In this document: positions 59,276 through 62,553 of the stretch, piece after piece
Layout of the letters: each line of letters opens with the position of its first letter
Position numbering within the stretch: the stretch's first letter is position 1
Assembly: GCF_900155985.1 (NCBI RefSeq)
Contig: NZ_FTMA01000001.1
Location: 124,001 to 188,000, forward strand
DNA: 64,000 nt
Reading direction: 5' to 3'
From: Maribacter ulvicola
GTDB lineage: Bacteria; Bacteroidota; Bacteroidia; Flavobacteriales; Flavobacteriaceae
The notes under the pieces: generated by a model
The model's database searches: none
Told to the model about the DNA's origin: nothing
What the model saw: the letters and a program-made list of their open reading frames with translations, nothing else
Translations under genes and position numbers: made by a program

Positions 59276-60325
59276 CTAAAATTTAAATGCTTTGATAAAA
59301 TCTGCGATTAAAACCGGTACAGGAAAATGTGTTATTTCCCTAACCGGAATCATATCATTAAAAGTGTCATTGGTATACACCAACCAAAACTTTGTGTACA
59401 AATGCTGATGAGATAATTTATGCACTACAGCATTATCATTAAAAACTAATACCTCTCTAGATTTTATATCTTTAAGTACCTCTTTATACTTGATAGTAAC
59501 CTCCTCTATTTTTAGGACATCTTTTGATTCCAACAAAGGAAATTCCCAGAGATTCTGCCAAATACCTTTTCCGATCCTTTGATTTAATCTGGTAAATTGG
59601 ATCCCTTCCGCATCCTTATATATAGGTATAAGATAATTAAAGTATCTATTGCGTACTTTTGTTTTCTTTAGCTTTACCGGTAAATCATTTACCAAGCCTT
59701 TTTCCAAGGCAACGCAACTATCACTTAAAGGACAAAGCAAACATAAAGGCTTTTTTGGCGTACACTGTATTGCACCAAACTCCATGATACCTTGGTTGTA
59801 ATCTCGTATCGCCTTTTCATCCATGACTTTTTCAGCCAGAGTTTTAAAATACTTAATACCCTCGGTACTATTAATAGGAATATCAACACCGTAGTACCTA
59901 GCGAGTACCCTATACACATTTCCATCTACTACGGCCTGCGGTTCATTAAAACATATAGATGAAATGGCACTGGCAGTATAGTCTCCCACCCCCTTTAATG
60001 TTAAAAGTTTCTTATAATTATCCGGAAACTCACCTCCATATTCATCCACAACCATTTTTGCTGCTGCATGAAGATTTCTAGCCCTTGAATAATATCCTAA
60101 TCCCTGCCATAATTTTAAAACTTGCTCTTCATCTGCATTTGCAAGATCGGCAACAGTAGAAAAAACCTCTGTGAACCTTAAGTAATACGGGGTTCCCTGA
60201 GCAACTCGCGTCTGCTGAAGTATAATTTCTGAGAGCCAAATTTTGTAAGGATCTATAGTTTCACGCCATGGTAAACTGCGTTTATTTTCATGATACCAAT
60301 CTAATATTTTACTGGAAAATGACAT
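59276..60325 (-). CDS. mutY: A/G-specific adenine glycosylase
   Basis: A 349-residue repair enzyme that removes adenine paired with 8-oxoguanine. Helix-hairpin-helix LTLKGVGDYTASAISSICFN with the catalytic Asp in AVVDGNVYRVLARYYG. The [4Fe-4S] loop is CTPKKPLCLLCPLSDSC (C-x6-C-x2-C-x5-C). The C-terminal NUDIX-like domain (IYKDAEGIQFTRLNQRIGKG; GIWQNLWEFPLLE) recognises 8-oxoG. Divergent from HU. Confidence 0.97.
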   Translation of the reverse strand: MSFSSKILDWYHENKRSLPWRETIDPYKIWLSEIILQQTRVAQGTPYYLRFTEVFSTVADLANADEEQVLKLWQGLGYYSRARNLHAAAKMVVDEYGGEFPDNYKKLLTLKGVGDYTASAISSICFNEPQAVVDGNVYRVLARYYGVDIPINSTEGIKYFKTLAEKVMDEKAIRDYNQGIMEFGAIQCTPKKPLCLLCPLSDSCVALEKGLVNDLPVKLKKTKVRNRYFNYLIPIYKDAEGIQFTRLNQRIGKGIWQNLWEFPLLESKDVLKIEEVTIKYKEVLKDIKSREVLVFNDNAVVHKLSHQHLYTKFWLVYTNDTFNDMIPVREITHFPVPVLIADFIKAFKF

Positions 60326-60406
60326 GCTCTTGTATACTAAGTTATAAAAGTAGCAGTTTATACACTTAAAATTAACTCATTAGAAAGAAAGATTGAATTT
60401 AATTTA

Positions 60407-60414
60407 TATATTTG
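60407..60414 (+). promoter_or_regulatory. TATATTTG -7 box for HU
   Basis: TATATTTG fits TAnnTTTG and lies 39 bases before the HU ATG. A TTG occurs 11 bases upstream, which is shorter than the usual -33 spacing. Confidence 0.55.
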
Positions 60415-60452
60415 CATCCCGAAAAAACATACAGAAAATCTAATATTGAAAG

Positions 60453-60743
60453 ATGACGAAAGCGGAAATTGTATCGAAGATCTCAGATAAACTGGGAATT
60501 GAAAAAGGAGATGTACAGGCAACTGTTGAATCTTTTATGGAAGAGGTAAAAACATCATTAGAAAGTGGCGACAATGTTTACCTAAGAGGTTTTGGTAGTT
60601 TTATCATTAAAACTAGAGCCGAAAAAACCGGTAGAAATATTTCCAAAAACACAACTATTAAAATACCCGCTCACAACATTCCAGCATTTAAGCCTGCAAA
60701 GGTTTTTGTAGAAGGAGTTAAGAGCAACGTACACGTAAAATAA
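60453..60743 (+). CDS. HU-family DNA-binding protein
   Basis: A 96-residue nucleoid protein: MTKAEIVSKISDKLGIEKGD, then VESFMEEVKTSLESGDNVYL and the HU/IHF signature RGFGSFIIKTRAEKTGRNIS. The DNA-inserting arm with Pro is KIPAHNIPAFKPAKVFVEGV. It organises and bends DNA. The gene is divergent from mutY and followed by the small basic protein 22 bases later, so they share a transcript. Confidence 0.96.
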   Translation: MTKAEIVSKISDKLGIEKGDVQATVESFMEEVKTSLESGDNVYLRGFGSFIIKTRAEKTGRNISKNTTIKIPAHNIPAFKPAKVFVEGVKSNVHVK

Positions 60744-60765
60744 TTAATCTTAAAAAAAGAACTTT

Positions 60766-60855
60766 ATGCCAAGCGGTAAGAAAAGAAAGAGACATAAGGT
60801 AGCCACACACAAGCGCAAGAAGCGTAGAAGAGCTAACCGACACAAGAAAAAGTAG
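60766..60855 (+). CDS. 29-residue very basic protein, probably a ribosomal protein of the bS22/mS38 (COX24) type
   Basis: A short gene easily missed by annotation: ATG at 60766, TAG at 60853-60855. The product begins MPSGKKRKRHKVATHKRKKR and ends NRHKKK; about 60% of residues are Lys, Arg or His. Its 'KRKRHK...HKRKKRR...R' spacing resembles the AURKAIP1/COX24 domain of bS22 and mitochondrial mS38, which thread into rRNA. It lies between HU and a strong terminator whose stem begins in its last codons, and before RNase G. I infer a ribosomal or RNA-binding role; a direct family match is from memory. Confidence 0.8.
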   Translation: MPSGKKRKRHKVATHKRKKRRRANRHKKK

Positions 60856-60878
60856 TTTTATAACTACTTTTTCTTTTT
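60847..60878 (+). terminator. Terminator of the HU/small basic protein unit
   Basis: AAAAAGTAGTT / AACTACTTTTT with a four-base loop; the TAG stop of the small gene lies in the left arm. Followed by CTTTTT. Strong. Confidence 0.88.
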
Positions 60879-61005
60879 AAAACACGTTCATTGACATAGA
60901 GATCCATTATTTGGGTTTCGGCAGATACTATGGTATTTGTCTATGGTATTGTTTAATCAGTTCGTTCCCTATTTTAATAGGTGCAACGACTAAAAATATA
61001 TTCAG

Positions 61006-62553
61006 GTGAATAGAGAATTAATCGTAAGATCTAGTTCCAAATCTGTTGACTTTGCCTTGCTAAAGGACGGAAAACTCACTGAACTACATAAAGAAGAGAA
61101 TAGTAACGACTTTTCTGTTGGCGATATTTTTCTTGCCAAAATCAGAAAACCGGTTACCGGTCTTAACGCAGCGTTTGTTAACGTTGGTTATGAAAAAGAT
61201 GCTTTCTTGCATTACCACGACCTTGGTCCGCAATTATCTTCAATGTTGAAGTTCATAAAACAAGTGAGTACCGGAAAACTAAAGGATTTTACTTTAGGAA
61301 ATTTTCCTTTCGAGACCGATATTGACAAAAACGGTGTTATTACCGATGTCATTAAAGCGAACCAATCATTGTTGGTTCAAATTGTTAAAGAGCCTATATC
61401 TACTAAAGGACCAAGAATTAGTTCTGAGCTATCAATAGCTGGGCGCTATTTGGTAATGGTTCCTTTCTCCGATAGAGTATCAGTATCTCAAAAAATAGGT
61501 AGTAAAGAAGAGAAAGACAGATTAAAAAGACTCGTTAGAAGCATTAAACCAAAAGGTTTTGGTGTCATCATTAGAACAGTCGCAGAAGGACAAAAAGTCG
61601 CAGAACTGGACAAAGATCTAGAAAACTTGCTGAACAAATGGACAGCAATGTGCAAAAAATTACATCGTGCCCAAACACCATCAAAAGTATTTGTAGAGCT
61701 TAATAGAGCATCTTCTATTTTAAGAGATGTGTTCAATGATAGTTTTACAGGAATACATGTTGATGACGACACCCTATATCAAGAAATTAAGGATTATGTG
61801 TCAGAAATTGCTCCCGAAAAAGAGAGCATCGTTAAGCACTATAACACCAATGTTCCTATTTTTGAAAAATTTGGTATTGAAAGGCAAATTAAAACGTCTT
61901 TTGGCCGTACTGCCGCAATGAGCAAGGGCGCCTATTTAATTATAGAGCATACAGAAGCACTTCATGTTATAGATGTAAATAGCGGCAACAGATCTAATAA
62001 AGCCAAAAACCAAGAAGATACGGCCCTAGAGGTAAATCTTTTGTCCGCATCAGAAATTGCAAGACAACTGCGTCTTCGTGATATGGGCGGAATTATTGTG
62101 GTAGATTTTATTGATATGGTAAAACCACAACATAGAAAAAGGCTTTTTGAACATCTTAGAGATGAGATGAAAGATGATCGTGCCAAACACAAAATACTAC
62201 CTCCTAGTAAATTTGGTTTAATTCAGATTACCCGACAAAGGGTACGACCTGAAATGAATATTAAAACAACTGAAGAGGACCCTAACAATGCAGGGAAGCA
62301 GGTGGAAGCACCTATTGTTTTAATAGATAAAATTACAGCGGACCTTGAAAAACTTCTTAAAGGACCTGCAAAAGACAACAGTATAACACTTAATATACAC
62401 CCGTTTATAGCAGCCTATATTACAAAAGGTTTTCCATCAATGAGAACAAAATGGTTCTTGGAATATAAAAGATGGATTAAAATTCAACCGCGTGATGCGT
62501 ATACGTATCTTGAATATCGTTTTAAAAATAAAGACGGCAAAACAATATATTAA
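61006..62553 (+). CDS. rng: Ribonuclease G/E family endoribonuclease
   Basis: A 515-residue RNase G-like enzyme, with a GTG start giving MNRELIVRSSSKSVDFALLK. S1 RNA-binding domain at about residues 35-115 (IFLAKIRKPVTGLNAAFVNV; GYEKDAFLHYHDLG). The catalytic DNase-I-like core has LIIEHTEALHVIDVNSGNRS with the Mg2+ Asp, and MGGIIVVDFIDMVKPQHRKR with the second. GLIQITRQRVRPEMNIKTTE then lies before the C-terminal part. The RNase E C-terminal scaffold is absent. A 127-base leader precedes it. Confidence 0.95.
   Translation: MNRELIVRSSSKSVDFALLKDGKLTELHKEENSNDFSVGDIFLAKIRKPVTGLNAAFVNVGYEKDAFLHYHDLGPQLSSMLKFIKQVSTGKLKDFTLGNFPFETDIDKNGVITDVIKANQSLLVQIVKEPISTKGPRISSELSIAGRYLVMVPFSDRVSVSQKIGSKEEKDRLKRLVRSIKPKGFGVIIRTVAEGQKVAELDKDLENLLNKWTAMCKKLHRAQTPSKVFVELNRASSILRDVFNDSFTGIHVDDDTLYQEIKDYVSEIAPEKESIVKHYNTNVPIFEKFGIERQIKTSFGRTAAMSKGAYLIIEHTEALHVIDVNSGNRSNKAKNQEDTALEVNLLSASEIARQLRLRDMGGIIVVDFIDMVKPQHRKRLFEHLRDEMKDDRAKHKILPPSKFGLIQITRQRVRPEMNIKTTEEDPNNAGKQVEAPIVLIDKITADLEKLLKGPAKDNSITLNIHPFIAAYITKGFPSMRTKWFLEYKRWIKIQPRDAYTYLEYRFKNKDGKTIY

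Follow-up and report, generated by a model that had tools for sequence, protein, structure and literature searches.

A highly basic 29-residue protein encoded downstream of HU in Maribacter ulvicola is an ortholog of ribosomal protein bS22

RESULTS

The ORF downstream of HU encodes an ortholog of bS22

We found that a short ORF following the HU gene in a 64,000-nucleotide stretch of M. ulvicola DNA, hereafter referred to as the window, is almost certainly the gene for bS22, a peptide that fills a pocket of the 30S ribosomal subunit and bridges to 23S rRNA. The predicted product of this ORF is MPSGKKRKRHKVATHKRKKRRRANRHKKK. It is an ortholog of a ribosomal protein that is already known; an initial annotation of this DNA, which had proposed a likely ribosomal protein of the bS22 type, was therefore right in its interpretation, and the protein is not new. 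The gene escapes the curated profiles, as neither Pfam nor NCBIfam contains a model that matches its product, so that reading by eye was useful in this case. The features discussed below are compiled in Table 1.

Table 1. Features of the HU–bS22 region, in coordinates of the window.
Feature	Coordinates	Strand	Remarks
TANNTTTG, possible −7 promoter element of the HU–bS22 unit	60407–60414	+	Weak; 47 matches on the window + strand
HU-family DNA-binding protein gene	60453–60743	+	PF00216, E 1.7e-27
bS22 gene	60766–60855	+	ATG to TAG; encodes a strongly basic 29-aa protein of the small ribosomal subunit
Hairpin containing the bS22 stop codon, putative terminator	60844–60875	+	14-pair stem, 60844–60857/60862–60875
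RNase E/G family gene	61006–62553	+	PF10150, E 2e-99; same-strand downstream neighbour, outside the proposed function

A phmmer search of the PDB sequences with E values up to 10 returned three matches in total, all of which carried ribosomal or bS22-type names. These were chain 5 of 7jil, in which 28 of 29 residues are identical to the window protein (E 4.2e-11), chain 10 of 9i5v, named an AURKAIP1/COX24 domain-containing protein (E 2.7e-08), and chain V of the Borrelia structure 8fmw, named bS22 (E 2.1e-06). According to PMC9976891, 7jil is the ribosome of Flavobacterium johnsoniae. A bS22 profile search of the same sequences gave E values of 2.4e-15, 2.8e-13 and 1.1e-11 for 7jil_5, 9i5v_10 and 8fmw_V, respectively, matched nothing else, and so left unmatched the mycobacterial bS22 and mS38 chains that are also present among the PDB sequences. 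Inspection of a Flavobacterium ribosome structure had been suggested as a check of the ribosomal reading; such a structure had already been solved by others, and its chain 5 is the match described here.

The likeness to the F. johnsoniae protein extends over the full length. R21 of the window protein is replaced by A in F. johnsoniae bS22, and the F. johnsoniae chain carries one additional C-terminal K. The Borrelia burgdorferi protein, whose gene is described as starting with GUG, shares 20 of 28 aligned residues with the window protein and differs at the other 8; passages of PMC10618245 describe Borrelia bS22 as closer to the F. johnsoniae protein than to mycobacterial bS22. The full-length match to a ribosome-bound chain (7jil_5) places the window protein among the bS22 proteins of the Bacteroidota/spirochaete type, and its size of 29 aa with 17 K or R residues agrees with this placement, copies elsewhere having 28 to 35 residues. 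PDB entries containing the 30-residue sequence of 7jil_5 name the molecule either '30S ribosomal protein S22' or '50S ribosomal protein L38'. The L38 label is probably a naming mix-up, because the relevant passages of PMC10618245 treat F. johnsoniae bL38 as a different protein that belongs to the 50S subunit.

The bS22 ORF has the signature of a genuine gene

The ORF had been described as having a start codon, a good frame and a product in which about 60% of the residues are basic. We counted K and R at 17 of 29 positions, and K, R and H together at 20 of 29. Only one of the 295 window ORFs of at least 25 codons that begin with ATG reached a K/R/H content of 60%, and none of 50 first-order random windows contained any ORF this basic, so that its basicity exceeds chance expectation.

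Coding conservation was determined for 19 loci, the window included, from genomes in the family or order of M. ulvicola; two further genomes in this set of 21, G088 and G107, had no locus. The numbers of variable sites at codon positions 1, 2 and 3 were 9, 2 and 27, respectively. When compared with the window copy, 6 of the 18 relatives carried synonymous changes only (6 to 14 each), 11 had one residue changed and one (L022) had four. Median dN was 0.029 and median dS was 0.96, with a usable dS for 89 of 171 pairs. Since the changes among relatives were mostly synonymous, the ORF behaves like a genuine gene. The earlier description of the ORF was confirmed. Across 27 diverse bS22 sequences picked from 56 loci, 17 columns were invariant. 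The source genome contains a single bS22 match.

Comparison with mS38/COX24 and with actinobacterial bS22

A profile search with the COX24/AURKAIP1 domain had also been suggested as a check. The Pfam model COX24_C (PF08213), whose curated cut-off is 23 bits, did not match the window protein, and no match was obtained with this model in the source genome at E values up to 10, in a search whose control matched 3 of 14 genomes. The same model matched 10 of 27 bS22 relatives weakly, with a best E value of 0.063. Similarly, no NCBIfam model matched the window protein, and the 27 relatives matched just two unrelated families at chance level. The resemblance to COX24 that the initial annotation had pointed to was not recovered by profile for the window protein itself.

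We compared the window protein with actinobacterial bS22 in two ways. An hhalign comparison with three actinobacterial sequences gave a score of 15.4, a value that 18 of 200 column shuffles also reached. Without gaps, the alignment has 8 of 29 identities, and its score was attained by 548 to 587 of 2000 shuffles. At the sequence level, the likeness to bS22 of actinobacteria is not distinguishable from an effect of composition. The case for a common origin of the two groups of proteins comes instead from published structures, in which they have the same location and shape. In passages of PMC10085706, bS22 of the actinobacteria Mycobacterium smegmatis and C. acnes occupies the same 30S site as F. 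johnsoniae bS22, and the C. acnes and F. johnsoniae proteins are given as 37% identical. Passages of PMC10618245 assign this same site to mS38/COX24/AURKAIP1 and to eL41; mS38 is longer than bS22 and bent at the same place, whereas eL41 is shorter and unbent.

Proposed place and role of bS22 in the ribosome

Because the window protein is 97% identical to F. johnsoniae bS22, we infer that it occupies the same place in the ribosome. In this position bS22 would form a short, bent, basic helix filling the pocket made by h27, h44 and h45 of 16S rRNA deep in the 30S subunit, near the decoding centre, and upon subunit joining it would touch 23S rRNA, at H67 in C. acnes and at H68 in Borrelia. For relatives, published structures show both the place and the contacts: the Borrelia protein lies in a pocket of h2, h27, h44 and h45 with contacts to H68 (passages of PMC10618245) and the C. 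acnes protein in the h27/h44/h45 pocket with a contact to H67 (passages of PMC10085706), and both papers also describe F. johnsoniae bS22. The peptide may stiffen the top of h44 and contribute an additional intersubunit bridge, and it may also influence decoding, movement of the head or initiation. By analogy, the best functional hint may come from yeast, in which loss of mS38 is described as altering the decoding centre and as selectively impairing initiation on some messages (passages of PMC6582356). The Borrelia bS22 gene received zero insertions in a transposon library and was classed with the essential candidates (passages of PMC10618245), which speaks for the importance of bS22 in that organism. 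For bacteria, the passages covered report no targeted deletion of bS22, only this lack of insertions in Borrelia. Tryptic mass spectrometry of Borrelia detected the other ribosomal proteins and missed bS22 (passages of PMC10618245); trypsin shreds so basic a peptide.

The free peptide might also be antimicrobial, in addition to acting in the ribosome. We consider this very unlikely for the window protein, as no export signature is visible in its sequence, and as inhibition of growth or translation is common among basic peptides at high concentration. Such a second activity has been proposed for C. acnes bS22, which in passages of PMC10085706 inhibits Escherichia coli, two staphylococci and cell-free protein synthesis.

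Genomic neighbourhood of the bS22 gene

The bS22 start codon is separated by a gap of 22 nt from the stop codon of HU, and HU was found where the initial annotation had reported it. We propose that HU and bS22 are expressed from one transcript that ends at the hairpin containing the bS22 stop codon. The Bacteroidota −7 promoter motif TANNTTTG occurs upstream of HU as a weak candidate element (Table 1) and is absent from the 22-nt gap between the two genes. Further upstream, a 349-aa ORF on the minus strand (59276–60325) resembles, by eye, an A/G-specific adenine glycosylase (MutY).

The hairpin has a predicted free energy of −15.2 kcal/mol (z −5.28), and a stem of less than −8 kcal/mol touching the bS22 stop codon was found in 17 of 20 loci, the window included. 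A terminator stem overlapping the stop codon had been claimed previously. The stem itself was confirmed; only three T residues lie 3′ of it, the T-run being mostly within the 3′ arm, and since a simple terminator scan of 60300–61100 listed no site, we regard its function in termination as putative.

HU was directly upstream of bS22 in 19 of 19 loci examined from the same family or order. At wider range, a same-strand HU gene was found upstream of bS22 in 43 of 74 loci for which 1.5–2 kb of upstream sequence was covered, a count that includes three loci twice, 17 loci that were the top matches of one class, and L077, which was chosen via HU. When HU of Balneolaceae and relatives was used as the query, bS22 lay downstream of HU on the same strand in 58 of the best 80 loci, with a spacing of 58 to 1312 nt. 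Within these best 80 loci, those numbered L138–L168, many of which are from Ignavibacteria, contained bS22 after HU in 28 of 31 cases, 27 of them at 799–1005 nt. Elsewhere, in L025, L035, L039 and L054, an ORF occupies the gap between HU and bS22. As the linkage extends to Ignavibacteria, it would predate the Bacteroidota families.

This linkage, which is invariable in the 19 close loci and reaches Ignavibacteria on the same strand, together with the extreme basicity of the peptide, could also be read to mean that the peptide is a histone-like, DNA-binding partner of HU in the nucleoid and that its place in the ribosome is incidental. We judge this to be extremely unlikely, since a sequence identical at 28 of 29 positions has been modelled as a ribosome chain, since 31 of the 74 loci had no HU within 1.5–2 kb upstream, and since 18 of the 22 genomes without a copy near HU, among the best 80 loci, contained a match elsewhere.

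In all 19 close loci an RNase E/G gene is located 3′ of bS22, and the same arrangement applies to 24 of 56 bS22 loci overall. The proposal that this conserved sequence acts as an RNA element or as an RNase E/G leader peptide and not as a free-standing protein, which could appeal to its short length, to the hairpin at its end and to this RNase neighbour, has a negligible probability, as it is refuted as an exclusive explanation by the concentration of variation at third codon positions together with the presence of the product in a ribosome structure, and as the ORF is retained in those 32 of the 56 loci in which the flanking DNA covered has no RNase E/G match (e.g. L035, L051 and L053).

Distribution of bS22 and lineages without a detectable copy

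A bS22 match was present in 196 of 198 sampled Bacteroidota genomes, including that of M. ulvicola, and in 102 of 103 genera. The two misses, G147 and G195, remained without a match at an E value of 10. In the class to which G147 (GC 0.65) belongs, 72 of 80 genomes contained bS22 at an E value of 0.1; the misses comprised all six sampled genomes of the Salinibacter-like family f34 (G147, G195, G198, G213, G219 and G225), together with two members of genus g68, from which five genomes were sampled. In five of the f34 genomes (L289–L293), HU is followed by a gene that by eye is zinc-ribbon-like and that resembles the ORF following HU in L035. No bS22 was found in the 2.4 kb after this gene (best score 4.3 bits). 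The sixth f34 genome, G213, had no HU match.

A second group without detectable bS22 is of the Fodinibius type, in which four genomes had no bS22 match. In G228 and G218 the HU loci (L076 and L078, with HU stops at 1795 and 1798, respectively) had no match to the A1 profile above 3.4 bits, and whole-genome searches found no copy of bS22. Their sister G222 carries bS22 beside HU (L077), with an A1 profile score of 54.6 bits. We considered gene loss as the general cause of a missing copy near HU, and this explanation was mostly rejected by the matches elsewhere in 18 of the 22 genomes described above. The remaining four had no bS22 anywhere: F. halophilus, F. roseus and F. sediminis, in which whole-genome searches gave no match, and a metagenome bin of 1.6 Mb that is perhaps incomplete. 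The L090 genome served as a positive control in the whole-genome search and was matched. These absences are absences of a detectable match, and a very divergent copy is possible. The existence of genomes without a detectable copy suggests that bS22 is not required everywhere.

As a tentative scenario, bS22 may be an ancestral HU-linked ribosomal protein of the Bacteroidota in the wide sense, including Ignavibacteria. Salt-loving lineages would then have lost it on two or more occasions, namely in the Salinibacter-like family and in part of Fodinibius, where high intracellular salt or compensating changes in the rRNA pocket may replace the basic clamp. An explanation of the loss by salt alone was weakened by the finding that Aliifodinibius salipaludis and Rhodohalobacter halophilus retain bS22. 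Literature searches for bS22 with the names Salinibacter, Fodinibius, Balneola or COX24 yielded no description of bS22 loss among the matches listed. If the scenario is correct, the salt-loving lineages without bS22 would be natural knock-outs for studying its role. The near-universal presence of bS22, its gene neighbourhood and the lineages that lack it form a simple comparative set for the function of this protein, and these lineages are the sole part of the analysis that might reward further work.

bS22 and Shine–Dalgarno use

Passages of the mS38 study (PMC6582356) prompted the idea that bS22 accompanies a lack of Shine–Dalgarno (SD) use. We surveyed 400 kb per genome in five genomes, which covered two lineages without bS22, taking the first ATG as the start of each ORF, a choice that blurs the signal. 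Four-base SD cores preceded a fraction of 0.037–0.102 of the ORFs, versus 0.026–0.107 at control positions. The idea was rejected, since a small excess of SD cores occurred in Fodinibius-type genomes both with and without bS22, so that SD use does not track the presence of the protein: the fraction was 0.077 in the genome with bS22, versus 0.039 and 0.056 for its controls, and 0.060 in the genome without it, versus 0.026 and 0.047.
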